Shown one piece after another: positions 30,305 through 63,110 of a DNA stretch of 64,000 nucleotides. The first letter of the stretch is position 1. The number at the start of each line of letters is the position of its first letter. This stretch comes from Corallium rubrum. Its lineage: Eukaryota; Cnidaria; Anthozoa; Scleralcyonacea; Coralliidae. The notes under the pieces were generated by a model. It saw only the letters and a list, made by a program, of their open reading frames with translations, was not told the origin of the DNA and did no database searches. The stretch spans positions 3,354,031-3,418,030 of the forward strand of contig OZ036003.1 of the NCBI GenBank assembly GCA_964035015.1. Direction: 5' to 3'. A program made the position numbers and the translations under genes.

Positions 30305-30370
30305 GATGCATGCTTAAAACGCTTCACTGGTGATCATGCAGAAGGTTGTGTGTTCGAGTCCCGCTTACAT
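30305..30370 (+). repeat. tRNA-derived SINE-like fragment
   Basis: GGTTGTGTGTTCGAGTCCCGC contains a B-box-like TTCGAGTCC with a plausible T-arm. The upstream A box is weak. It lies in an intron of the decayed zinc-finger gene. Confidence 0.4.
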
Positions 30371-30415
30371 GGTAACTTAGAAATTTTTCTGAGTAAAATA
30401 GCCCGAAGAAGATAT

Positions 30416-30600
30416 CTGTTATTGAAAACATGTAAATCTGTTATTGAAAACATGTTATTGAAAACATGTAAATCTGTTATTGAAAACATGTTATTGAAAA
30501 CATGTAAATCTGTTATTGAAAACATGTTATTGAAAACATGTAAATCTGTTCTTGAAAACATGTTATTGAAAACATGTAAATCTGTTATTGAAAACATGTA
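30416..30600. repeat. 36-bp minisatellite
   Basis: About five units, each made of a 22-mer (TTATTGAAAACATGTAAATCTG) and a 14-mer (TTATTGAAAACATG). It generates spurious repetitive ORFs on both strands. Confidence 0.9.
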
Positions 30601-45789: not shown

Positions 45790-46079
45790 TTAAATAAAAG
45801 AAAAACGTTCGTTGAGTCCGTGAGGATGAATGGTACCAATTTTGAAAATGAGACGTTTTTCTAGTCTTTTGCGGCTGACATTACCGCCAGAAATGGGTGA
45901 GATGGCACAAACTTGCATGTCCGAAATACAATGGTTGGCACTATTAAAATGTCGGGCAACAGGCTTGTAAACATCACTGTTCCTCACAGAACGAAGATGT
46001 TAAGCAAACCTGTCAGATAAACGTCTGCCAGTTTCACCGATGTAAAGCATGCAACATTTATTGCAAGAAATACAGTAAA
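45790..46079 (-). pseudogene. Penelope-like GIY-YIG endonuclease domain
   Basis: Minus-strand residues YCISCNKCCMLYIGETGRRL open the GIY-YIG fold (here L-Y-I-G-E-T-G-R), preceded by the Cys pairs usual in Penelope enzymes. After a small frame change near 46000 it continues NSDVYKPVARHFNSANHCIS, with the H-F-N element typical of the family, and ends RLIFKIGTIHPHGLNERFSF at 45790. This domain would nick target DNA for the RT. The upstream half of the protein lies beyond the 10.7-kb insert. Confidence 0.85.
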
Positions 46080-46330
46080 CCCTTACAAAAATTCCACATA
46101 AATTCACACGTGTGAATTTATGTGAATTCATGTGAGCACATGTGAAACCATGTGATCCTATGTGAAATGTAACAAGTGAGAGAATTTCACATGAGATCAC
46201 ATGTGAAAATTACCATGTCAGAGAATTTCACATGATTTCACACGTGTGAAAGAACTTCACATATGTGAGATTTAACATGGGAAAGAATTTCAAATGATTT
46301 CACATGCGATCACATATATTCACATGAAAT
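46080..46330. repeat. Left terminal inverted repeat and subterminal repeat array
   Basis: After the 20-bp terminus come at least ten CACATG, CACACGTGTG or ATGTGA-type motifs in both orientations, spaced roughly 15-30 bp. Candidate binding sites for an element-encoded protein. Confidence 0.85.
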
Positions 46331-47938
46331 CAACACAAACATTGACGTTAAAATATAAATATATTCAATACAATATTTTGCATATGCAAATATACACTAT
46401 TTATTTTATTATTAATGAATACCAAGTTTAAGCTAAATGTATTTAAAAAGCATCATGTCCACATAGTTACAACTTATATGTACACACAGATTTATGTGAT
46501 TTGCAATTACCAAAACAAAATCTTTCTTCACTTCACCCAGCTAATGCCACACAGTGCGAATCAGAGTAGATCAAGGCGCTCTTCACTGAGGTGAATAATT
46601 AAAATCATCTGGCCTTGCCGGATAAAATAGTTAAACTTTTAGGTAAATTTTTCACTGACCAGGATGAGCCAAAGGCAATGCTTGAAAATAAGATTCTTGA
46701 ATTTGGTTATGCATCACACAAGAAAATCTAATAGGGGGGTAACTCATCAACTTATTTCTAAAAATACAACCTATGTACAGTACATGTAATAATATATATA
46801 CAATATTCATGTTTGTACTTACTCAATGCAGCACTTAGTCTCTGTCAATAGTATTGGGCAACTTACAGTAGAACTGTTCCTGCTGGCTTACGCCTTCAAT
46901 AACTGCAAACTTGTCTTGAATATTGCCCAACTCAACAATTTCCAAAACAGAGCAAGTTTCCACAATCTTCTTAATGTGGCTGCACAAGATGCCACATCCA
47001 GCTTCAGAATGTACCAGTGCATTTTCAAGTTTAACTTGCCGTCCAAAAGCAATACTACAAATATCATCACATTGTTGAAAATGGATGACAGCAAATACAA
47101 CAAGTTCAAATGTTAAATTTGTTTTTGTCCCAACAATGTAATTTTTTCTTCTTGAAGCCCGCTTGTAATTGATACAGTGGAATACATTCCCATTCACAAT
47201 GGCTTTTGTGAAAAATTCTGCATCACTTAAGACATCAGCACTCTGATAATACTCCTCAACAACATATCTTTCTTCAATGCTTAGCGGTCGTGAATAAGAA
47301 GCACCCAAAAAGATTATGTTCTGTTCCATCTTCTTAGCCTTTCTCAGTGGTACATGGCCTTTGAGCTGCTCATTCATAAAGGAAAAGATGGAGTTGATGG
47401 CAGGATCCTCTGTTGAACTGCTACAAATAGCTGATATGGCTTTGTACAACAGGAATGAATTAGCAATCTGGCGAGGAACTGCTTGTGTTCCATGGAATAA
47501 TCTCAGGAGCACCAAATTAAATCCTTCAAAAATATAAGAGGAATAACATGGCAATGGACCCCAGTCAATAACTGTTTGTGCCAAATGGGTTAGCTGATGA
47601 ACATTGTAGGTCATGTGGGTCTTGCCATACAGTGCTTGAAACTTCTTCGTAAACTTGGACAAGCACAGGTCAGCCTTGTTAATATCAGAGCGACTGATAC
47701 TGGACTTTGTCAGCAAATAGACACCTTCCACCAAAAGGAGAAGATGTCTAAAATGCTGGGTTGGGAGCAGTCCACGCAGGACAACTGGCGAATATAAAAG
47801 CAGCCACCAGTGCCACTCGGATCCCTTCCAAAAGGCTCTCTGCGTAATTGAACGGGGAACTCTTGTCACTTCTTCTGGTGGCATCACTCCTCGCAGTCTT
47901 GAGTCGATAACTTGAGTGTGTCTACCAAGGTACCAAGG

Positions 47939-49119
47939 CAACCTCGTACCCAGGCTCTTTTCAACCCGCCGCGCGGAGAAAAGACCCTGGTATATCATGG
48001 TCACGTGACTACCAAAATCTGGTTGTGACAAATTTTGTTTGGGCAGGGGTGGGGTAGAGAGGATTCGAAGCTTTCGGTTTGAAAGAAATATCATTTGAGA
48101 AAGTACTTCGATCTTGGATTCAAGAGTTCAGCGCTGAGTGGGTACGATATGATTTCTGATTATGTCCACAAGAAACGGATAACGTTGAAGAGACTCGCGC
48201 CGCAGAGAAGCGAAGCAAAGAAGCAGATCGCCGACGGTAAATAATTCACCATTTCAAATTCACCTAAGTTATTCCTTCTCTAGCTGCTCAAGATTTCGAC
48301 TATAATGCGCTTATTCTTATACACAACTTGTTTTGATGTGAGTACTATACGTAAATTGCCGAGGTGTAGAGCAGAGAGAAATTCGAAGCATTCGGACCGA
48401 CGATCGTCGGCATTTACCCAGACGGCAGTCTGAAGTTTTAATTTGGATAAACAACCCCGAGGAAAATATCTCAGCGCTTTGTATTTTTACGATTTATTTG
48501 GTGTGATGTACGTTGCAGATAATTTTTCGTTGCTGTGAAATTAATGATCAGCCCTCAAGTTTGAGTACCGAATATCTTTGTATATTTCACTTGTTTATAT
48601 AAAAAATTTGCCTAGTCCTGTGCGAGACAAATCAGTTTCTGTCTCCGTTCAGTTCAAGTGGGTTCGACGACGCAGTGTAAACTGTATAAGACTTTCTCTC
48701 CGCTCCACACGTCGATAATTTGCGTAGTATTCACATCAAAACAAGTATAGTATGTGTAAGGATAGCATTATAGCAAAAAAACCTGAGCAGCTAGATAAGG
48801 AATCCGAATTTAAAACGGGAAAAATATTTACCACCTGCCGTCATTGCTTTTCGCTTTTCTTCGCCGTCAGTCCCTCGTACGTCACCCGTTTCTTGTGAAC
48901 ATATTAAATCAGAAATCATAGCCACATATATTGTTGAATTCAAGATCGAAGTATTTCGTCAAACGGTAAAATCTTTCAGACAAGAAGCTTTAAATCATCG
49001 CTACCCCACCCCGGTCCAAACAAAATTTGTCACAACCAGATTTTGGTAGTCACGTGACCATGATATACTAGGGTCTTTTCTCCGCGCGGCGGGTTGAAAA
49101 GAGCCTGGGTACGAGGTTG
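47939..49119. mobile_element. 1,181-bp foldback/MULE-like element inside the transposase exon
   Basis: Ends CAACCTCGTACCCAGGCTCT and its inverse. The first 100 bp or so of each end are nearly identical inverses, and weaker complementarity continues to about 450 bp, leaving a short unique centre (about 48415-48680). The flanks carry a 9-bp duplication GTACCAAGG (47930-47938 and 49120-49128). The host reads NHNQPWY on one side and LGRHTQVIDSRL on the other, in frame once one duplication is removed. Long inverted repeats plus 9 bp suggest Mutator-like origin. Confidence 0.9.
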
Positions 49120-51082
49120 GTACCAAGGTTGGTTGTGATTGCTGGAATCGAACCACAAGTGTCCCAGTTGTCTGGTAACACCAAGATCAACACAGTGAAG
49201 ATTGTCCACCACAAACCCTCTAACAATGTCAAAGTATGGCAAATCTGACAGTTTTGTTGGTCCTTTGACACCACACACCGGTTCCTGCTTACGATAAGCC
49301 AGTCGACCATTTCTTTCCATTTGTTCATGTGTTCTCATGCCATGCTGCGATGATTCTTCTGTGTATACTCTGCAATGACCTCTTCCTTTTGCAATTGACT
49401 CTCCAGGATTTTGACACCAACTGCAACCATATAGCCCATTAAACTGATGAATATTCTGGAGAACACACCTTGCAACACTGTCACACGAGCATATACATGC
49501 AAACACTCGTGAACACACAGTCACTCCTCCACGAACCCAGGTCATTCCAATTCTACCCAATCTTCTCAACTCTTCTGTGAAGGGGTTGAGGAATGAGGTC
49601 ATAGTGGGTTTGCCAGTTCCAAACCATAACCCAATTAGAAAAACATTTTCCTTCCTTTGCTTTGGTGGCAGTTCATTCATAATTCCCTGCAGTGGCCAGA
49701 TTCCAAAATTGGAGGATTTAAAGATTGGAACACCGTCACAGTTAAATGAAACACTCAAAGAATTTGGATCCGACATTAGCAAACCTCCTGCCATAGTTTT
49801 GTATAACTGGCCATCAAAAATGTCCTCAATAGCAGAAGAGGAGACTTTTTTTCTTGTAAATCTGTAAGCCAGATCTACGGTTTCTCCACACTTCGTGAAC
49901 AGATCACGGATCGGTTTCTCCAATGGCAGATAGATAAAAACGTTTCCATTTTGCAGCAACATGTCCTTTTGATATGTTGCTTCACATATTGTGCATTCGA
50001 GAGCTTCAAATCCTGTAAATAGGGCATTGCAAGTGGGGCAATAAAGCTTAAATTGCACACCATCCTTGAAAGCATTAAAATACTTATCAAAGAGAAACTT
50101 TGTCCTTGAAAGTCGCGAGTCAGTTGGTAAAATGAGAGCTAACAACTTCAGAAGATTTCCAATAGCAGCACCAGAAAGATTATTACCAAGCATGAAAGCC
50201 ATAAGCAGCAACAAACATTGGCCAACAGTCACTTGAGCCCCATCATAGAGCAGTTCGTCAATCTGGGATTGATCATTTTCGATCTCCTAAAACAAACAAA
50301 AAATATTCTTGAATACCAATTTATGATTAACCAACTAAGGGGCAAGGGCACATCAGAGCCATTACTCTTAGTATTTATAGTAATCACTATATTATATAAC
50401 TAGATATCCCAAATATTGCCTGTAATTTTTTGCTGGATACTCTTACTTACTGTAGTTACCACAAGGAAAGGAGAGATGGAAGCATCTAGAAAAGCAATAT
50501 GATTTTTTTCCATCTCTCTTTGTAAAGAAATTCCCTCGCAAGTTAAAAATTTACTCCTGAAAATATTAAGATTACAATAATATTAAAAGTCAAATACATG
50601 GTACATACATTTTCATCATCATCAGTATTGCTTTGGTCTTGGCAACTGTCTTCTTCCTGACAAGAGTCATCTTGGCTATAGTTTACTTCTTGGCAACAGT
50701 GTTCATAATTTTTCATTGATGACATCATGAAAAATTTTCTCATGTTTCTGAGGATGATTCTGTAATAGTGTTCATAATCATATCCAAGTATGTTGAAGTC
50801 TTTATAAAAAAGAAGAAAAACATGAGGATTCAGATAAAAAGAGCAAGTTTATTTGTCCAGAAACTACATTCTGATCATACTAAGCATTCTTTAAATTCCA
50901 ACAGTCCTGTCACTAAGGGGTTTTATTTAAAAGCAGTAAAATGAGTACCTGCATGCATGTCAGACCACATGTCAACTAAACAGAATTTGGGATAATACAA
51001 AGCCAAATATGTCATTTAGACTCTTTCATGTTACAGTACATGCTGCCAAACTGTGTTATGTATTCCTTCATATTCTACTAAA

Positions 51083-51681
51083 GTTGGGTGGTATGGGAAT
51101 GTCGATACTGGTATTCGATACTCCAAAAATATGATCATTACAATTTTCCAGCCAATGTGTAATCTACAGTTGACACCCGATAACTCGAACATTCAAGGAA
51201 AATGGAAAAAAAGTTTGTGTAATCAGGGAGTTTGTTTTGTCAAATGTCATCTGAAATGACCTCATTCTATCTCAGCATGTAATCACGGTTTCCACATCAT
51301 TGATTGCTGTGATCGTTGAGTTTATTTTTGGGTGATCATAGTGATCATGTGGAAACCAGCCTAAAGTTTCAACACATTTCAACAATTTTTCGATTTTGTT
51401 TACTGCGTTGACTTATCACTGTATATGGGTGCTTTTGGCTGACAGGAATGAGGCTTAACAGTTACGTTAGCTTAATGAGTAACCTACAATTTGTGAATGG
51501 TGATGACGAGTCAGTTGCTGCAAAATTTCGGGGTGGGGGGGGGCTGGGGCTCCCCCCTATTGAGATTTCTCCAGGGGCTAAAGCCCCTCAGCCCCCCCCC
51601 CCCCCCCATACTCTATGCCAATAATACCGGTATCAACTAAATACTGTGAATAACTAAAAATACCAGTATACCACCCAACAT
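51083..51681. repeat. MITE-like repeat in a transposase intron
   Basis: GTTGGGTGGTAT at 51083 and ATACCACCCAAC at 51681 are exact inverses. The interior includes an inverted G/C-rich block (51530-51610) with long G and C runs and GGGGCTxxxxCCCC motifs. Confidence 0.65.
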
Positions 51682-52038
51682 TAATTTTTACCCACATTAT
51701 CTAGCAGGTATAAGATAAAACATGCTCTGAACAGTGAGCAGACAAAAATAATGCTACTCCGGTTTTATAATTTGATGAATGTAGCTTAAGAAAGCTATTT
51801 CAGTTGTTCCCCTATCGGACCCCACGTTATGAGCATCAGCAAAAAGCTCTTCACGCTGTGATTCATGATCGTCTCCAGTTTGTAGACGACGCCATTTGGT
51901 TGTTCTGGGGACAGCAACGCTGTTACCCGTGTCTGACGGTGCAAGGTACAACTTATATGGGCCACGTTTTCGTCTCGGTGTTTCATTATTAACAGAAGAA
52001 CAGCTTCCCACATCTTGACTATCGGAATTGTCTTCCAT

Positions 52039-52601
52039 GATACCACATGACCACAAATTGTGGCACAAACAGTCAAACACAATATTGAAACAAGCACAAT
52101 TAAAGTATCAACCTTCGGTGTTTTTCCGTTTCTCTGGATAAGGATATATAAATTTTCAAAATATATATATATATAGGGATCACTGGGTAAATATAGGGAT
52201 CACTGAGTAAATATAGGGATCACTGAGTAAATATAGGGATCAAGAAGCAACAGGAAGCGGAAACGCTCGATGGTCAACATTTTTTAAAAAATCAATATTT
52301 CTAGCTTGCTTGTTTTTATTCGGTCAAGAGCACGGTTACAGTAATGGGTCAAGCTACCAAAATATTTTAATGCTGCTATATTTTTTTGAGGCATGGTTTA
52401 GTGTTTTCTGTGCCATTGTTATTCCTCATCTGACCTCAGACCTCATGAGGCATTCAAACTTGATAATTATTGACTACGTCATCAACACGTGACAAGAAAC
52501 GCGGCAAGTTCGACTTTCGAGTCTTCCGTCTTCTTCAACTATCGTCAGTATCGTGGTCAATCTCCGTGTTTTTTGATAAATTTTCAACTGTTTTAAGCGC
52601 C
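52039..52601. promoter_or_regulatory. Shared promoter of the transposase and BEN-like genes, with 20-bp iterons
   Basis: The 560 bp between the two divergent starts. At 52171-52241 a 20-bp unit GGGATCACTGAGTAAATATA repeats about 3.5 times. A bidirectional promoter is inferred from layout; the iterons could bind an element-encoded regulator. Confidence 0.5.
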
Positions 52602-55600
52602 ATGAAGTACATTCTCGTTAACTGGACTGCAACCAATGAAACTAGCATCTTGACAGATGAATTTGTTCGTGATAAAAGCATGCTGAAAGACGTCAACAAA
52701 GAAGGAATGATTCGCTTTGGAAAGCTTGGTTGCAAAGAACCGAAGGAAGGATGGAAAGCGTATTTAGGACGAGTTATATTTGTCAATGGTGAGTCTTTTT
52801 GATATTTTAGTAATGGTTAATCTCGATTCTGTAAAGATTTAGTAATTTGGAGAGTTAATTGCACGATTACGATAAATACAATACAGTTTCATAGCATATT
52901 GCCAGCGATGGGGCCATGCGGTAATGCCACAGTCTGTCGTCTGAAACTGCTTATTTTAAAGGCAATTAATCATATTTTCCCAAAGCATTTAATGCTTTTG
53001 ATTACTGACAAAGGTATGCGGGATGTCGAAAGTAAATTGAAAACTTTAAAAGTCTTTACATGTTAATATATGGGCCTGTTAAAATGCTGCTCCCAATCCT
53101 TAGTTTTCTCGTCAATTGGCGGCCATTTTGAATTCATTAGATAAAGAGTTAGAGTCCTCAATTTAAACTGTGATTTATTGTTAGTAGCCTTACACTGTTA
53201 TAGTAAAGAATTTGCAAATTGTGATGTACATAGATATACAGCTCTATCTTTGTTTTGTCTCTGATAGAACGAAAGAAGCTGGTTGAACTGAGGGAGAGAA
53301 CGTTCCTTGGTGAAGTGTCTAGCATAATGGGCGATGGTGAAGGTTACCTTGCATCCAGCCATAGAAACAGAAAGAGGAAGATCTCATCATCTGACTCTGA
53401 ACTCTCATATGATTCATTTACAGAGGAACGAAACTCAAAAGTAAGTATTACACTCTCACATTCCTTGTTGGTTTGTTAGTGTGTGTCAAGATAATTGACT
53501 CTGTAAAGATGACTGAATGAACTTTATTTAATGAGGGAAAGATGTATTAACCAAAAAGGTTATCTAACATCATTGTTTATCAGGCTGTCCACCTCTTAGG
53601 GGTCATTATATGGAGGCGAGTTACCCGGCTAAGCGAGTTACTCAGCTAGCTGCGTGGAAAAAATTGTCCGTTATGTGAAGCTGAGTTACTCGACAAGACA
53701 ACACTTTGGTTCTCATATATGTTTAGTAAAAGAATTAGAGTTCTCGACGGCTGAAGAATGAAAGAAGTGAGAAACAGGTTTCTCACACTCAGTGGTGAGC
53801 CTGGGTCTGGCACATGCTCTTATTGTATGCGCCTTCAGTGAAAGTGTGAGAAACAACAATCCTTTTTCTACATTTTTAGAAAAAGATTGCAGATGCTAAA
53901 AATGCTGCCCAAAACAGAGCATTCAAAGACATTATAGACAGGATGGACCCAGAATCAGAGTATGAGCCTGAACAGATGGAATCTAAGCAGGAATTGAAAG
54001 AAAAACTTATGGAGGTGGAAAAGGAGTTGGCTAAAGAAAGAAGCTTGGTGAAGCAGCTACAAAATGCAAATCTTATGCTTCAAAAACGTGAGTAAATCCA
54101 TTAGTAAAATTTATTTAAAGCATTCTCTGACCAATTATAAATGTTCCTATAAGCTTTCGGTTACCAGACTGTAACCTTCAATGGGTAGATATAATAAAAA
54201 TAGAATAAGATTAATCTATTTACAGTATATACAAACAAACAAGTGATGAAAGGTGGGCATGAGTAATTAGCAGTGTCAATATTACTTTTGAAGTAAAATG
54301 GGTCATTCCAGAAAAGATCCATACCTCCCCACAGAGGAAATTTGTGCCATCCGGGGAGGGGAGGGGGGTAAATCTACTTCTGATAATAGTAAAATGTACT
54401 AGGACGTCCGAAGGGGGGAGGGGGTCAATTTCACATTTCCTCTGTGGGGGAGGTGTTGATGTTTTCTGGAATGACCCAATGGTGTATCACCAGAACATTT
54501 ACACCATTTTACATTACATGTACTTCAAAAGTAATATTGACACCACTAATTACTCACTCCCTCACATTCAGTATACTGTATATAGATGGTAATAAATGCC
54601 TATGAAGTTGCTTAACTAAGGTTTATTAAACCAATATTTGGCAGGGTCTTAAAAATAATTTCACACTCACGATTATTCTTAGCCCAAATTTATGTGTTGA
54701 TCATTTGAGTGTGAAGTAAGTGTCAAATATAAGTTTTAATTGATATTACAATTCACTCATTTAATCAGCACTATCACTTAAAAAATGTTTATTTTCTTAA
54801 CAGATCTCCCAGATCTTTTAAAGCAAACATGCAACAAGGCCATTACAGAATGCATTGTTGCCGACAGAAAGAACAATTCAAAAATTCAGCACAGCCCTTC
54901 TTCACTTAACCAACAATCACGTAAACCTTTACTTGGACAACGACCAGGCAGTCCTTACCCACTCAGCCAGCAACCATGTAGCCCTACAGTATTCTGTGAA
55001 ATGGACCAGTCCTCGACTCCTCACTCAACACAGAGATATTCAACAGAAAGTTCAATTGCTAAACCTAAGCGAGTGGGCCTGGAAGCAATTTCCATGTGCA
55101 GACCCTCCAAGGACATCGAGAGTGATGATCACACTAGCAGTGGTTATTCCGATGGTCAACAGAGTTCCTCAACCTGCCCTGATGACCCACTTCCACCTCT
55201 GTCGGTAAGTTGACAACCGCGCATTTATTTTAGTTATTTTATTAGAAAAGTATTTTATATTAGAAATGCAAAATATGTGCCTCGCCACATGTTCTACACA
55301 TTTTTAATAAATACTATATCTTGTATCATTGAGCTGGCAGCTGAAAGTTTGCAGATTTATTTTTAGTTATATGTATTATTACCATTTTATTTATGTTCTC
55401 ACAGTTTTAACCATTGTTTGTTTCAGAACTTTGCGGACTCTATCCAGGTGTCAGAAATTATGAATGCAAGAAGTGAAAGAAAAATGACAATGATTTTGAT
55501 GTACATTTTATTTGAAAGAAAGGTCCTTGCATCCTCATCTGTCACTGGGAAAAGCAAGGAAGGTCGCCCTGCATTGGATCGTCAGAAAGTCCAATTAATC

Positions 55601-55848
55601 ATATGTAAGTTTTAGTTGATTTTTAAATATTGGTTAACGGTAATTGCTTGGTCACTAACACATGTGTTTATCAATAGATGTCTATGAACTTTATGTAGTA
55701 ATAGCTTTTTTGTATTCATTTCATAGTCCATGTGCTCAAACGATTCCCAAAGGCTACTCCAACAACAGTTAAGGCTGCCATGGCACAAAAGTGCAAGGAT
55801 GAAAGAAACGCTACTGAAAGTAGGAAGCTAAAAGCTGAAAAAGACTAA
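52602..55848 (+). CDS. Coiled-coil and BEN-domain-like protein (six exons, 422 residues)
   Basis: Exons 52602-52788, 53268-53440, 53880-54087, 54804-55204, 55427-55604 and 55727-55848. Every junction is AG/GT and phases agree, giving an uninterrupted frame from ATG 52602 to TAA 55848. The N-terminus has MKYILVNWTATNETSILTDE and GKLGCKEPKEGWKAYLGRVI; exon 3 forms a coiled coil (QELKEKLMEVEKELAKERS); exon 4 is Ser/Pro/Gln-rich and likely disordered. Exons 5-6 (residues about 324-422) resemble a BEN domain: SERKMTMILMYILFERKVL, GRPALDRQKVQLII, HVLKRFPKATPTTVKAAMAQ. BEN domains bind DNA or chromatin. It is the only intact gene in the transposon and is divergent from the transposase, so a TnpA-like role is proposed. 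It could instead be a captured host gene. Confidence 0.75.
54213..54588. repeat. Nested MITEs in intron 3 of the BEN-like gene
   Basis: The inner repeat 54300-54477 has ends GGGTCATTCCAGAAAA and its inverse. It lies inside a second inverted repeat whose arms share GTGTCAATATTACTTTTGAA and its inverse. Both lie between exons 3 and 4, leaving splice sites intact. Confidence 0.75.
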
Positions 55849-56049
55849 CTGATCTTACTTATGATCTTATTCATGCATCAATTGTAAATTAGTCTTTCGG
55901 GCCTCGCTTGTGTGTCTGTAATTCAAGAGAATATTTGCTCCCAATTGAGGCCAGAAAGGGTAATTTAGATGCACATAAAAGAATATTATTTTAAATCAGT
56001 CTACATTATGAAAGTAATATTTGGCATTTCACTTGATTAAACTGGATGT

Positions 56050-56328
56050 TGTAGGTAATTTAGGTGAAGGAAAATTTCGAGTATAGATTATATACAATTC
56101 TACTCTCGGCATTACAACATTATATATATGTATATAGAACTTGTGGCCACGCTCTTGGCAACAGCTTCCGTAGCTCAGTGGTCAGAGCACTGCACTAGCA
56201 TCACAGGGTCGTGGGTTCAATTCCTAGCCAGAAGGCCTTGATGTTGCATTTTTTGCAACTGGTCCCGGTTTGGTCTTAAAATGTATATAATCTACACTCG
56301 AAATTTTCCTTCACCCAAATTACCTACA
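56050..56328. repeat. MITE with a tRNA-like core
   Basis: Ends TGTAGGTAATTTAGGTGAAG and its near-exact inverse, arms about 46 bp. The core at about 56163-56235 has an A box (TAGCTCAGTGGTCAGAGC), a loop CTAGCAT (anticodon position AGC, alanine-like) and a B box (GGTTCAATTCC). The stems are imperfect. A tRNA-derived SINE inside a MITE is likely; a functional tRNA is unlikely. Confidence 0.65.
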
Positions 56329-56524
56329 TTATGAAAGGTCTATGTTATACTGTATCATATAATTTATTCTATATATTTTATTCCATATTTCATATTTGTC
56401 TTGTGTTATATTTGTTATATCACAGGTATATTATAATAAATTTTCAAACTTCCCTGTATTTAGATGGTATTGGTTTAGTGTGTAGCTTCATCATGTATAA
56501 TTTTACACTCAAACGTAATTTAAT

Positions 56525-56763
56525 AGTTTTGAAACATGTGATTCCACACATGTTAAACTTCACATATGTTATATTTCACATGGTTTCACATGTGAAATTT
56601 AACATGGGGAATATCACATGTTCCAAAATCACATGTTAAATTTCACACATGTTAAACTTCACATATGTTAAGTTTCACATGGTTTCACATGTGGAATATC
56701 ACATGTTCCAAAATCATATGTTAAATTTCACACATGTGAAATCATGTGGAATTTTTGTAAGGG
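56525..56763. repeat. Right subterminal repeat array and terminal inverted repeat
   Basis: About fifteen CACATGTG, CACACATG, TTCACATATG or ATCACATG motifs, partly organised as a tandem unit of about 100 bp (TTAAACTTCACATATGTTA recurs), followed by the 20-bp terminus. Confidence 0.85.
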
Positions 56764-57154
56764 AAATGATGTTGGAAGAGATGCAGGTAAAATTATGCTG
56801 AATAACAAAATTATATTTAGGTCCCAAAATACATGTAGCGGAGTTAAGAAAGGAACACGTGTAACAACGGGTACGGGAGCAAGAAAAAGTACCCGCTGGT
56901 GCCAATAGATTTTTTCTAAGGGCACTACGCACCAAACCATCACGAATATTTTTATTACGCCGAAAAGAGATTAACGGGTTGTCGGTTAAAATACCTGACG
57001 TTTCAGGATCATTCTTTAGGATATGGAAATTGTGGCTATCATTAGTTATCATTAGTTGAAAGGATGAAATGTGAGAACTAATGGTATTTTAGTATCAGAA
57101 ACTCTTTCTAAAGGTTGTTTTAAAGTGTCAGGACGAGGAATACTAGATGCTTTG
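56764..57154 (-). pseudogene. Penelope-like element, connector between RT and endonuclease
   Basis: Minus strand: SSIPRPDTLKQPLERVSDTK, IPLVLTFHPFN, then after a 10-bp micro-duplication (CTAATGATAA/CTAATGATAG) that shifts the frame, NPLISFRRNKNIRDGLVRSA, then CSRTRCYTCSF and NFTCISSNII, which abuts the 10.7-kb transposon. The cysteine-rich CCYTC-type part normally precedes the GIY-YIG domain. Confidence 0.8.
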
Positions 57155-57667: not shown

Positions 57668-58333
57668 TCACAAAGACAGTTTGTCTTTCTTTTGTTGTTG
57701 CAGGAGGACGGTATGCCCCTCCTCTATTGTAGAGAATTTTGCATTCTGTATTTTGTCGGCATAGTTCTTTGCTCGGTGTTTGTAATGTCGATCTCGTTCG
57801 CAGGCATCTTCCAACGTACGTTTTGGCTCTTGTGCGTTGATCTGAGGCAGTTTCGTTTTGATGGGTCGTCCAAATAACAGTTCAGCAGGGAAAATGCCAG
57901 TTGAAATATGTGGTGTTGCTCTGTAGATCATTAGGAATCTAGGCAATTCGTGTTTCCAGTTGCGACCTTCCGTGTGTGCAGCTCTGATGGCTTTTTCCAT
58001 GGTTTTATTGAACCGCTCTACAATGGCGTTCGCTGAGGGCCAGTACGGAGTTATGTATTGTTGTTTGATGCCACAACTCTCCAGGTACGACTTGAATTCT
58101 TGAGAAATGAATCGGGGACCATTGTCCGATATGATTTCTGCTGGGTAGCTGAACTGTGCGAATAACTTTTCCAAAGGATGAATAATGGTGGTTGCTGTGG
58201 TGTTTGATATGATTTCAACGGCTGGCCAGCGAGAACAGGCATCCACCACGACTAATAATGATTCTCCAGTGGGAAACGACCCACATAGGTCGATATGAAG
58301 GTTTTGCCAAGGCTGGGTAGGCATCGTGGACAT
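57668..58333 (-). pseudogene. LTR element integrase domain
   Basis: Core motifs in order: LHIDLCGSF (first D), EIISDNGPRF (second D) and ANAIVERFNKTM (catalytic E), followed by FLMIYRATPHISTGIFPAEL, typical of gypsy integrases. It would insert element cDNA. The upstream zinc-binding segment (58334-58530) is out of frame with both neighbours. Confidence 0.88.
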
Positions 58334-58530
58334 CCGGAGTGGCTATGGGGTGATCTTTGAACCTTGAGCTTGGCATGGTAGGCATCGGCTAATCATGGTT
58401 TCAACAGCCTTATCTATTCCAGGCCACCAAACTTTTGGCGTAGGAGCTGTTAATTAGTCTTTACAACACCCTGGTGACCTTGATGGCTTAGCTCTAGCGT
58501 AGGCTTTTGCAGCTGGCTTGGTATGACGAT

Positions 58531-59835
58531 TCATGTTCCGCGAAGTATGATATTGTTCTGTATTGACAGTTCCTGTCTCACGTTGAAATACGGCCTAATG
58601 TTCTGATCATTCGGCCATTGGTTGGATGTGATGCACTCAGTAAATGACTGATCTGTGAGTGGTAATCGGGAAAGGACATCAGCTGGGTTTTCGGGACCAG
58701 GAATATGGATGATAGTAAATCGGTAAGGCTGCAAGCGGAGAGCCCAACGCTCGATTCTGGCAGGAGGTTTCCCTTTGGGGCTGTATATTATCTCCAGAGG
58801 CTTGTGGTCGGTATACAGGGTGAACTCGCTACCACATAGATAGATGTGAAATTTCTCACACCCCCAAACCACTGCAAGAGCCTTCTTTTCCGTCTGGGAA
58901 TATCGACGCTCGACGTCAGACAATGTGCGGCTTGCATAGGCTACAGGTCTTGTTGTTCCTTGTTGGGTCTGGGTCAGTACCGCTCCGAGTACCGCTCCGA
59001 GCCCAACAGGGCTGGCATCGACTCGTAGCTGAGTTGGAGCTGATGGGTCGTAGTGTGCCATAACATGTGGACTGGTGAGGAGGTTCTTCAGTGCATCGAA
59101 AGCATTCTGGTGAACAGTGTTCCATCGCCATGGGCTGCCTTTGCGGGTGAGTAGGCGTAGCGGCTCTGCGACAGTTGCAAAGTCAGGGATGAAACGTGAA
59201 CAATATGTCACAAGCCCCCAAAAACTTCGGACTTCAGCTGCATTAACAGGTGATCAGGCTTCGCGGATAGCATCCACTTTCTTGGTATCAGGCCTGACAC
59301 CATTTGATGATACTTCGAATCCAAAGAAGGTCAGCTTGTTAACACCAAATATGCATCTCTCTCTGTTGAGAGTGAGGCCTTTCTCTTGCAGTCGCTGCAG
59401 CACCTTGGCAAGGTGTTGGTCGTGCCCTTCCTTGTTTCTGCCGAAAACAATGATGTCATCAGATATGTCCCTTGTACCCGGGCATCCTTGCAAAGCTTGT
59501 TGGATGATGTGTTGGTAAATCTCGGGTGCTGAGGTAACTCCGAACATCAAACGCGTGTATTGATACAAACCATTGTGGGTAACAAAGGTCGTAATTGGTC
59601 TTGAATCAGGATGTAGCTCGATCTGATGGTATCCCCATCGCAAATCTAGCTTGGAATAGGCTGTAGAATCCTTGTAGTTCCTGCAGGGTCTCTTCAACAG
59701 TAGGGATCGGATGTCGTTCTCGAATGATCGCGGTATTTGCTTGTCGCATGTCCACACAGACACGAATGTCACCGTTGGGTTTTGGAACTGCAACGAGGGG
59801 AGACACCCACGGGGTTGGACCATCCGTTGGTTCAA
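58531..59835 (-). pseudogene. LTR element reverse transcriptase (C-terminal part) and RNase H
   Basis: From about 59680 the frame reads AYSKLDLRWGYHQIELHP, TSAPEIYQHIIQQ, and ISDDIIVFG (catalytic YxDD-box position with S in place of Y). Then after an in-frame TGA at 59254 it continues TYCSRFIPDF and the RNase H part: RVDASPVGLGAVL, YSQTEKKALAVVWGCEKFHI, YTDHKPLEIIY. A one-base lesion near 59670 separates it from the upstream RT segment. Confidence 0.88.
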
Positions 59836-60380
59836 TTATTCCAAGTGTTTCAAGCTCTTCTAGTTTTTTTTGAACTGCTTTACGAATGTGGAATGGAATG
59901 CGCCGCTGAGGTTGGGCAACTGGCTGTACGGAATGGTCGATGTGGAGCTCTAGTTCGAAGTCTTTGAGCTTTCCAATTCCATCGAATACTTGCGGATTAT
60001 TGCGAGCTAACTCATCTACATTGGTTTCTTCTTGGATAAGTATTTCCTGCACTGGATGAACATCATCATGTTCATGGAAGAAACCAAGAGCAATTGCTGT
60101 TTGACGGCCGAGGAGTGATCCAGAATCTTCATTCGCAACAACGATGAAGGTAGCATACGTGTTCATTTGGTCGTGTGAGATCTGACAGGAAAATGAACCT
60201 TGAATAGGTAACGGCGTTGTTGATCCATATGGAAACAATCGTAAAGGTGTATGGACAAGTGTTATTTTGTTGTTGTTGTTGTTCACCTGGGCAAGAGTTG
60301 ATTGTCAAGCACATTGACGCTTGCCCCTGAATCAACGATAAGGTCAACTGGAATATTGTCGATTCTTACTGTCGCATCTG
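59606..60380 (-). pseudogene. LTR element protease and N-terminal reverse transcriptase
   Basis: The protease active site VDLIVDSGASVNVLDNQLLP lies near 60300-60360. A one-base shift then leads to a frame from 60286 with GSLLGRQTAIALG (protease C-terminal motif), IRKAVQKKLEELETLGIIEP, WVSPLVAVPKPNGDIRVCVD and MRQANTAIIRERHPIPTVEE. The frame is lost at about 59670. Confidence 0.85.
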
Positions 60381-60510
60381 GCATCTTGCCATTGTTACCA
60401 AGTGCAAAGACGTATTCTTCCTTAGATGAACTTTGGTCGTGTACTGGAAGTGGTTTGCCATGTACATATCGGATTTCACTTTGCTTGTAAATTTCATTTT
60501 GGTTGTTTTG

Positions 60511-61341
60511 TCATTGTGCGGTCTTATCGTCACGACGGGTTGACTCTGCTTGATTCTCTCTTCTTGGTTGTCGACATGCTCTCGCGAAATGTCCCTGTTT
60601 TAGGCAATTATTGCAAGTCTTTCCTTGTGCGGGGCAATAACGATCTTTGGCGCGATGTCCAGCATTACCACAACAATAGCAGACAATATGCGTGTTTAAC
60701 TGACCTAACTGTTGTTGTCCTTGTTTCTTTGTTGGGTTTGAAAAACGAGTTGATCTAGATTGTTCACGAATAAAGCTAATGTCCTTGTCGATGTTTCTAG
60801 AACTGTCGGTTTCCATCTGAGACGCTTGTCGTTCAGATGCCTCGAGGGAACGACCAATTGTAATGGCGGTTTCAAGAGTAAGAGTTGTTTCTTGAAGAAG
60901 TCGTCGTCTCAAACGGCTGGACGAGCAGTGGTCGACAATCTGGTCATAAATCATGTCGTTAGGGTTATCGTATTCACAAAATTTCACTTTGTGCTTCAAA
61001 CGTGTTATAAACTGTTCAATTGTTTCTCAGGGTTGCTGAGTTGTTTGGCGAAAATTGTGGCGCTCGAAGGGAATATTTTTCTGCAGCTCAAAATAAACAG
61101 TGAGTTTGGCGAGGGCCGTGTCTAAATCATTCCCGGTATCTTCGAGAGTTTCAAATATATCTTGTACATCTGAACCTGCCAGATGAAGTAAGACGGCACG
61201 TTGTTGTTTCTTTTCGGTTATTCCTGAAGCCGCGAGATAATATTCTAGAGATTTGACCCATTTTCGCCATCGTTGTGCTATTGTTGATGTGTCATCGACA
61301 CTAAAAGGTGGTACTTTAGGTAGATCAAGTACTTTAACCAT
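60511..61341 (-). pseudogene. LTR element gag-like protein with two zinc knuckles
   Basis: ATG at 61341 (MVKVLDLPKVPPFSVDDTST). A capsid-like helical region (RWRKWVKSLEYYLAASGI; VYFELQKNIPFERHNF) is followed by an in-frame TGA at 61027-61029 within QQP/ETIEQF. The frame then carries on to CYCCGNAGHRAKDRYCP and CNNCLKQGHFARACRQP, two CCHC-type knuckles. The stop makes this copy defective. Confidence 0.87.
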
Positions 61342-61406
61342 ACCTGTATATGTTGAAAACTTGTAGAAAACACACTTCAAAATCCGTTGTTATCCTCGTC
61401 GCCAGT

Positions 61407-61565
61407 TATAGTATCCATGCAAACACAATATATACAAATTCCAATAAGCGTTCGTTTATTATTCCCTTTCTGTCCTCGTGTCTCACTCGCTTACTTCTCC
61501 CTCGCGATCAGTCCCTCACGTGACAGAGTCAACGACGCAGTTAGTTATTAACAAGCAACACTATA
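61407..61565 (-). repeat. 5' LTR
   Basis: 159 bp; followed on the minus strand by the primer-binding-site-like sequence at about 61395-61405. Confidence 0.92.
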
Positions 61566-63110
61566 CTTTGTTAATACAGTGTCTAACAGGTGGGTGGGAT
61601 AGCCACGCTGGACAAAAAAGGATCTCATTTCCAAACACTTGGTCTCAAAGTCTTTGTCAACACTGCATAGGCGGCTAAGTCGCAGAAATTGAGAGTATGG
61701 AATAGATTGTTTAGTGTGTTTGGGATGAGAAGATGAAAATAAAAGGTAACTATGTGAATCAGTCAGCTTATAAGATACAGAAGTCATGAGCGAATGATCA
61801 CTAATCGATACCAAGATATCCAGGAACAACACACAGGTTTCACTGATTTCCCATGTGAATTTGATGAGTCCAGGGTGGAAATCGTTAACATAATTAATAA
61901 ATCTCTCTAAATTCACACGCGAGCACGATGCTTTTCCGAAACAATCATCTATGTATCTCTTAAAGAGATCAGGAAAGGGTCCAGTGTATCGTTCAAAGAT
62001 TTGTTTTTCAACATAACCAACAAATAAGTTTGCATAGCTAGGGCCCATTTTGGTACCCATTGCTACTCCACTAATCTGTTGGTAATGTTCACCATCAAAT
62101 GAAAAATTGTTGAGGGTGAGTACAAGTTCTGCCAAGCGAAGTAATGTAGTGGTGGATGGTTCCAAAAGGGTGCGTTGATTAAAGAAAAACTTCAAAGCTT
62201 CCAGACCATCACGGTGAGGAATGACGGTGTAGAGAGACTTAACATCCATGGTGAAAATGAGTTTACTGGAACTGCTGAAATGTATTTGGTCGAAAATCTG
62301 TAGAGCATGTTTTGTATCTTTGATATAAGAAGGCAACTTCTTTACCAAAGGTAACATAACATTGTCTAAAAAGCTGGAAATGAGTTCAGTAGGACAGCTG
62401 CAAGCTGAGACAATCGGCCTGCCAGGATTGTTAGGTTTATGAATTTTAGGTAAAAAATAGATAACTGGTGTTCTAGGAGTGGTGATCAGGTTGGAGGCAG
62501 AGGCAGGCAATCCACCAGCTTGAATAAGATTGTTAATGGTAGTTTTAACAGTTTTTTGGTGAGTACGGGTGGAATCGGAACGTAACTTAGTGTAAAAGGA
62601 GGCATTGCTGAGTTGACGAAGAGCTTCTTGTCGGTACAAGTCAGATCTCCAGACAACAACGGCACCACCTTTGTCCGCAGGTTTGATGACAACGTCATTA
62701 CGACTACGCAATGATTGAAAAGCTAGAAGTTCCTCTTTATTGAGGTATGAATGGTTTAATCTGTCGATACAAGTCAGATATCCAGACAACAACGGCACCA
62801 CCTTTGTCCGCAGGTTTGATGACAACGTCATTACGACTACGCAATGATTGAAAAGCTAGAAGTTCCTCTTTATTGAGGCGTGAATGCTTTAATCTGTCAA
62901 TTTCATGGTGGCACTGTCGAACAAAAAGATCAAGAGACGAAAATTGGCCTTCTGGTGGAGACCAAGAATACTTTTTAGGGTTGATTTCTTCAAAGACATC
63001 CTTATTAAAGGTGGAGGATTGATTATGAAAATGGGCTTTTAGGCGTAAACGGCGGAAAAAAGCTTCAGTGTCTTCTTTGACTGAAAATAGGGACTTTAAG
63101 CATGCACCAC
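61566..63110 (-). pseudogene. Penelope-like reverse transcriptase
   Basis: The minus-strand frame reads FNKDVFEEINPKKYSWSPPE, SRNDVVIKPADKGGAVVVWR, VIYFLPKIHKPNNPGRPIVS, FTMDVKSLYTVIPHRDGLEA, GVAMGTKMGPSYANLFVGYV and FKRYIDDCFGKA (catalytic YxDD), ending LLDTVLTK at the LTR insertion. These are hallmarks of Penelope-like RTs. A 133-bp tandem duplication at 62635-62895 repeats the IKPADKGG region and disrupts the N-terminal reading. The rest of the protein lies at 57154 and 46079. Confidence 0.9.
62635..62895. repeat. 133-bp tandem duplication within the RT
   Basis: Units start at 62635 and 62768 (TACAAGTCAGAT) and differ at few sites. It duplicates about 44 codons of the Penelope-like RT. 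Confidence 0.9.

Follow-up and report, generated by a model that had tools for sequence, protein, structure and literature searches.

The window analysed here, a 64,000-nucleotide stretch of the Corallium rubrum genome (GenBank assembly GCA_964035015.1, contig OZ036003.1, positions 3,354,031 to 3,418,030), contains a transposon copy of 10,684 base pairs (bp) at 46080..56763, in which a transposase gene on the minus strand and a gene for a BEN-domain protein on the plus strand (hereafter the partner) lie head to head. The boundaries of the copy are set by its inverted termini and by the reading frame of the empty insertion site. As the first-pass annotation had noted, the 20-bp termini match perfectly in inverted orientation, the left one (CCCTTACAAAAATTCCACAT, plus strand) lying at 46080..46099 and the right one (minus strand) at 56744..56763, and an 18-base version has no other match within the window at up to three mismatches (shuffle mean 0.14). 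The termini read 5'-CCCTTAC..GTAAGGG and are bordered by the two copies of an AA target-site duplication (46078..46079 and 56764..56765), at which the flanks share AAA by chance.

The main transposase exon is present in two parts on the minus strand. The 5' part (49120..50286) contains a CSWC motif and the codons of two candidate catalytic aspartates, which start at 49737 and 49482, and the 3' part (46835..47938) contains an HQLTH motif, a candidate catalytic glutamate codon that starts at 47527 and the stop codon at 46835-46837. Between the two parts lies a nested insertion of 1,181 bp (47939..49119) with 148-bp inverted ends (93%), flanked by the 9-bp duplication GTACCAAGG at 47930-47938 and 49120-49128. 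Because this insertion interrupts the frame, the transposase of the window copy is probably dead, a circumstance that the first-pass annotation did not mention, and the candidate catalytic residues are still present. Two further minus-strand exons are probable, an exon 1 with its ATG at 52038 (51758..52038, 3' end uncertain) and an exon 2 (50609..50799, start uncertain), for each of which the splice scan gave several solutions. Judged from the sequence, the motifs CDG, CSCDS, CSWC, HQLTH and FEG follow one another in this order, with the nested insertion splitting the series, and CxxC pairs are found in the N-terminal part.

The candidate D, D and E residues, with CxxC and HxxxH between the second D and the E, correspond to the pattern outlined for EnSpm/CMC transposases, in which C(2)C and H(3-4)H lie between the last two catalytic residues (PMC12730594). 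Database searching retrieved 111 relatives, many of which carry a precomputed PF02992 (Transposase_21) assignment, and those that are named come from an octocoral, fishes, echinoderms and arthropods. When E values up to 1 are admitted, 10 of 12 aligned relatives match PF02992, the best at 3e-9, and the 5' half of the window transposase matches this family weakly, below the cut-off (E 0.0061). Its sequence and relatives thus place the transposase in the PF02992/EnSpm lineage, and the earlier description of a Tnp2/Transposase_21-like gene is borne out by the relatives that bear this domain.

The partner gene starts at 52602 and consists of six plus-strand exons (52602..52788, 53268..53440, 53880..54087, 54804..55204, 55427..55604 and 55727..55848) joined across GT-AG introns into a frame of 422 amino acids that is open throughout, just as the first-pass annotation had proposed for an intact head-to-head gene. 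Exon 1 encodes a conserved N-terminal domain, exon 3 a putative coiled-coil region, as suggested by a model of the relative P0001, exon 5 the first part of the BEN domain, and exon 6 its end with the DNA-reading helix alpha5 and the stop codon at 55846-55848. The profile search recommended for the BEN-like C-terminal region identified PF10523 with an E of 4.6e-11 (43.2 bits against a curated cut-off of 23.2), and the relatives P0001 and P0002 are also above the cut-off. For a close relative, structure prediction confidently gives a BEN fold, and a profile search for further BEN relatives returned P0001 and P0002 again and nothing else. The N-terminal domain of the window exon is 56% identical to that of P0002; its predicted fold contains beta strands at a predicted local distance difference test score of 60, too weak for a structure search, and sequence comparison with solved structures gave nothing convincing among the fold families listed (best E 0.11). 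The interval of 563 bp that separates the start codons (52039..52601) may serve as a divergent promoter, as the head-to-head layout suggests. The third intron of the partner also harbors 41-bp inverted repeats (90%) at 54255-54561, which probably represent a nested short element.

Both genes lie inside the termini, and the ends of the element are arrays of CATG sites. The left array (46080..46340, 261 bases) has 10 CATG sites within TTTCACATG-type repeats, or 38 per kilobase (kb), and the right array (56521..56763, 243 bases) has 13, nine of which read ACATGT, or 54 per kb, compared to 4.3-4.7 per kb elsewhere. In the two ends together CACATG occurs 25 times, where the remainder of the window would predict 0.28, and the right array has 15 of these versus 0.13 expected. 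On either side the count of CACATG/CATGTG was attained in none of 5,000 first-order (dinucleotide) simulations, and the same holds for the plain CATG count on the right. Of the 21 gaps between sites, 11 measure 10 or 14 bp. Repeated subterminal motifs of this kind are a feature of EnSpm/CMC elements. A CATG cluster at 30351-30600 was considered as related ends and rejected; it is a minisatellite with a GAAAACATGTAAATCTGTTATT-type unit (30400-30600), and no other region beyond the element exceeds six CATG per 250 bp.

The composition of these arrays recalls the binding preference of a known BEN protein, as the BEN domain of NACC1 is reported to select ACATGT with an essential CATG core (PMC7764960), and in the crystal structure Asp462, Thr465 and Arg469 are described as reading the CATG target (PMC11472053). 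When positions are carried along from the end ranges of the structural alignment, the corresponding alpha5 residues of the window protein would be Asp407, Asn410 and Ser414, and in the same register the CpG-reading Arg316 of BANP would correspond to Lys406. Because the Asp, which contacts C and A, is the only one of the three to be retained, helix alpha5 appears compatible with a CA-containing site, and CATG is not proven by it.

The pairing of the two genes is not peculiar to the window. In the whole genome (474,352,983 bases in 312 contigs, about 474 megabases), the partner search gave 65 exon matches that cluster into 37 loci, and the transposase search gave 64 matches, with 60 of 357 candidates scored, that cluster into at least 51 loci; all transposase-locus figures rest on these. 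A partner match lies within 15 kb at 15 of the 51 listed transposase loci, window included, and 14 of these pairs are head to head, where chance would give 0.12; a one-off pairing is therefore rejected. Reading of the upstream stretch at C1:74142616 revealed a sixteenth pair, recognized by 27 residues of exon 1 (E 4e-5). When this pair is counted, the partner is present at 14 of the 19 listed loci that are at least 44% identical to the window transposase, the five loci without it being partial in every case, and it is present at 2 of 11 loci with 39-41% identity and at none of 21 with 38% or less.

The first-pass annotation had named two outcomes that would tell against the pairing, full-length copies lacking the BEN-like gene and a single-copy orthologue recently captured by this copy, and neither was realised among the loci listed. 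Seven of the scored transposases are full-length and stop-free, defined as a single row from residue 9 or before to residue 753, and six of them adjoin a partner; the seventh (C226, 35% identical), for which no partner match in 3.7 kb of upstream sequence improves on E 0.25, does not lie on the side of the transposase tree that holds the partner-bearing rows. As to the second outcome, the partner gene is spread over 37 loci. In a tree of 26 transposases (nine partner-bearing, eight others and nine unlabelled database rows), the partner-bearing and other rows split at one branch with 99/97 support, and none of 500 shuffles gave a value as low. The pairing thus recurs in many copies, is nearly always head to head and, among the rows examined, stays on one side of the tree, a side on which the Dendronephthya sequence P0008 and the fish sequence P0022 also fall. 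The BEN domain itself is seen in four of the nine partner-bearing rows, namely the window, C53, C1:66333 and C1:75353.

Two of these copies are informative at their ends. A second delimited copy (C1:66325566-66336548) carries transposase and partner head to head between a left terminus CCCTTATGAAAATTCC and a right terminus that is complementary except for two bases, with a CA duplication, and the CATG counts close to its two ends reach 8 and 13 per 200 bp. The C53 copy shows a transposase match of 753 residues (83%) free of stops, an exact right terminus, a worn left terminus, and partner rows for exons 1, 3, 5 and 6, the exon-3 row containing two stops. Further copies were sought in collections of viral contigs and genome contigs, and none was confirmed there.

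A genome search with the 20-bp terminus, as the first-pass annotation had advised, found 32 exact matches (12 forward and 20 reverse; none for the reversed control), comprising the two of the window, six in three short copies, ten that were followed inward and 14 others. Most delimited short derivatives consist of termini, CATG sites and little else: in eight of nine, which measure 80-183 bp, the termini enclose a short middle, and all eight contain 2-11 CATG. Over the 12 delimited copies, a tally that excludes the C53 copy with its worn terminus, the flanks share 2 bp in ten and 3 bp in one, and the latter is the window copy with AAA on both sides. The target-site duplication is therefore 2 bp long, and not 3 bp as had been annotated.

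These features also bear on classification. The duplication is given as 3 bp for plant CACTA elements (PMC2613891) versus 2-5 bp for the wider CMCT group (PMC12730594), and a length of 2 bp lies within the latter range only; CMC termini are described as 5'-CACTA or, 'in most cases', 5'-CA..TG-3' (PMC12730594), and CCCTTAC is neither. Because the termini and the duplication length fail the CACTA hallmarks, the element, on its transposase sequence, is of the EnSpm lineage and not a CACTA element, the label that it had first been given. Like plant En/Spm as described in PMC2613891, it combines a tnp2/Transposase_21 transposase, a second element-encoded protein, here adjoining six of the seven full-length transposases among those scored, and repeated subterminal motifs. 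In contrast to the plant element, with its CACTA termini and 3-bp duplication, the second protein is the product of a separate head-to-head BEN gene rather than an alternative splice product of one gene.

The site of insertion can be read from the flanks. Joining them across the element regains a 133-amino-acid frame ending CISCNKCCMLYIGETGRRLSDRFA, so the resumption of a host frame that had been annotated is confirmed, and the Penelope identity given to that frame is plausible, because an RVT_1 domain (E 1.8e-7) lies upstream at 61551-62855 on the same strand; a Pfam scan of the 133-residue piece itself returned no matches. The piece contains what we take to be a GIY-YIG-type motif. Between the RVT_1 frame and the transposon, Gypsy-like pol and gag pieces (rve integrase core, RT_RNaseH and zinc knuckle) at 57668-61389 are apparently nested in the same Penelope-like element. 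Within the transposon, 50-bp inverted repeats (94%) at 56050-56328 surround a stretch, GTAGCTCAGTGG...GGTTCAATTCC, that presumably resembles a tRNA, and this region has the look of a nested element into which a tRNA-derived sequence is built; ARAGORN called no tRNA in it or elsewhere in the window, and an Rfam scan of the element gave nothing. A CACCAGT simple repeat occupies positions 1-60 at the start of the window.

Taken together, these findings make it probable that the element represents a two-gene lineage of DNA transposons in which the BEN protein is the element's own terminal-binding factor. Plant En/Spm is reported to require TnpD together with TnpA, which binds the subterminal repeats, and the TnpA-like proteins of different plants have little common sequence (PMC2613891). 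By analogy, the BEN protein most likely binds the element ends as plant TnpA does. In this scheme both genes would be transcribed from the shared central region, the Transposase_21-type DDE enzyme would cut and join the DNA, and the BEN protein, dimerised or oligomerised through its coiled coil, would bind the many CACATG palindromes of the subterminal arrays through helix alpha5, and would thereby mark and pair the ends for the transposase. The TnpA job of En/Spm would then be done by another fold. The TnpA-like role assigned in the first-pass annotation is supported by the CATG-packed ends and by the tiny derivatives that keep termini and CATG; binding of the arrays, oligomerisation and a need for the protein in transposition are inferred.

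Several observations weigh against this reading. On the protein side, the solved BEN structure that comes closest in both sequence profile and fold is that of Insv rather than NACC1, and only one of the three base-reading residues of NACC1 is kept (D462 = D407); NACC1 further differs in being a host regulator with an N-terminal BTB domain. On the DNA side, the plain CATG count of the left array is only moderately high, as it was matched in 39 of 5,000 dinucleotide simulations, and one short derivative of 50 bp has no CATG. The partner is multi-copy, but in five of the nine partner-bearing tree rows (C25, C12, C23, C1:31522 and C1:74142) the N-terminal exon alone was matched, and a 4.2-kb stretch at C12 that includes the N-terminal domain has no BEN domain on the strand of the gene, its one BEN match (E 0.026) being on the opposite strand. 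Similarly, at 22 of the 37 partner loci none of the listed transposases (60 of 357 candidates scored) comes within 15 kb, although many of these are single-exon matches. Finally, when ten exact termini were followed 20 kb inward (tblastn, 1e-5), none reached either gene; six of them are ends of short derivatives, and another bounds an 8.44-kb copy (C8:12151589-12160028; L023 1561-10000) that has a TA duplication, both CATG-rich ends and one stop-to-stop frame of more than 100 amino acids, and in which neither gene was found. Exactly these termini therefore mark mostly non-autonomous copies, and the ends of those gene-bearing copies that were found resemble them without being identical.

If the BEN protein were instead a passenger or regulator, it would be carried by the element and act on expression or chromatin while being dispensable for transposition, whether as a self-repressor, an anti-silencing factor or a regulator of host genes. 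The known human BEN proteins are described as mostly chromatin-related (PMC11472053), bracoviruses also carry BEN genes (PMC4574769), some fungal EnSpm elements are reported to include a TET/JBP dioxygenase as an accessory gene (PMC12730594), and binding at the ends could repress the divergent promoter, much as plant TnpA is said to have a suppressor function too (PMC2613891). However, eight of the nine delimited short derivatives keep CATG beside their termini without genes or promoter, and the sites therefore fit a role in transposition better than one at a promoter, so that a dispensable passenger, in any of these forms, seems unlikely. The fungal case is similar in that an EnSpm-type element carries an extra chromatin-related gene, but that gene encodes an enzyme thought to aid escape from methylation and is present in many transposon lineages (PMC12730594), whereas the extra gene here encodes a DNA-binding protein and, among the rows examined, is found on one side of the transposase tree. 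The Drosophila BEN proteins Insensitive and Bsg25A differ as well, as the accounts consulted present them as host transcription factors and do not describe them as transposon-borne.

Transposons capture genes, and a host BEN gene might have been picked up by this copy or subfamily with no role in the element; humans have nine BEN proteins, and the domain occurs widely among animals (PMC11472053). Against this stand the spread of the BEN gene over 37 loci, its presence at most of the nearer listed transposases, the retained head-to-head layout, the single change on the transposase tree and the 56% identity of the N-terminal domain to that of P0002, while the transposase identities, which go down to 39-54%, argue against segmental duplication of one capturing copy. 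The idea that one host gene was captured was rejected on the loci and the layout, and capture in any form is extremely improbable. It is also very unlikely that the arrays are ordinary palindromic repeats, read by the transposase or forming hairpins, whose likeness to the NACC1 target is a coincidence. CATG is indeed a 4-bp palindrome, the arrays are built of repeats, the N-terminal CxxC pairs of the transposase could bind DNA, and in the diverged C1:75353 copy a repeat block beyond the transposase has TTTCATATATGAAA in place of the CATG type; however, the element encodes a separate DNA-binding protein, such a protein is reported to handle the subterminal repeats in plant relatives, and the altered repeat accompanies an altered BEN domain in a way that resembles a lock and key.

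This last point may be followed further. The two BEN exons of the C1:75353 copy are 38-41% identical to those of the window, and the repeat block beyond its transposase contains 14 CATATATG and 1 CATG in 500 bp; the region (C1:75352300-75353000, L058 1-700) is an array of approximately 21-bp units, ACTTTCATATATGAAATTAAA, with a layout like that of the CATG repeats and a different core. At C12, the sequence beyond the transposase contains five CACTGTG repeats in 351 bp. Because the ends of the C1:75353 and C12 copies are not delimited, a lock-and-key divergence of partner and end repeats is a lead only. A bolder and tentative proposal, for which the odds are rather low, is that an ancient clade of animal EnSpm-lineage transposons uses BEN domains as its terminal-recognition modules, and that some host BEN regulators in which a coiled coil precedes the BEN domain may descend from its proteins, with partner and ends diverging together into the TTTCACATGTGAAA type (window, C53 and C1:66), the TTTCATATATGAAA type (C1:75353) and the CACTGTG type (C12).

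None of the titles listed in searches of the open-access literature reports a BEN gene in an EnSpm-type element, a coverage that leaves aside Repbase and most subscription papers. Two-protein CACTA systems are known from plants, and with a BEN partner animal elements would follow a like logic. As the DNA-reading rules of the BEN fold have been solved, the model is testable by gel shift, and the differing end repeats of the diverged copies offer a natural series for the analysis of BEN specificity. If the model is true, it would also link a protein family known from chromatin regulation and from viruses to a mobile-element function.

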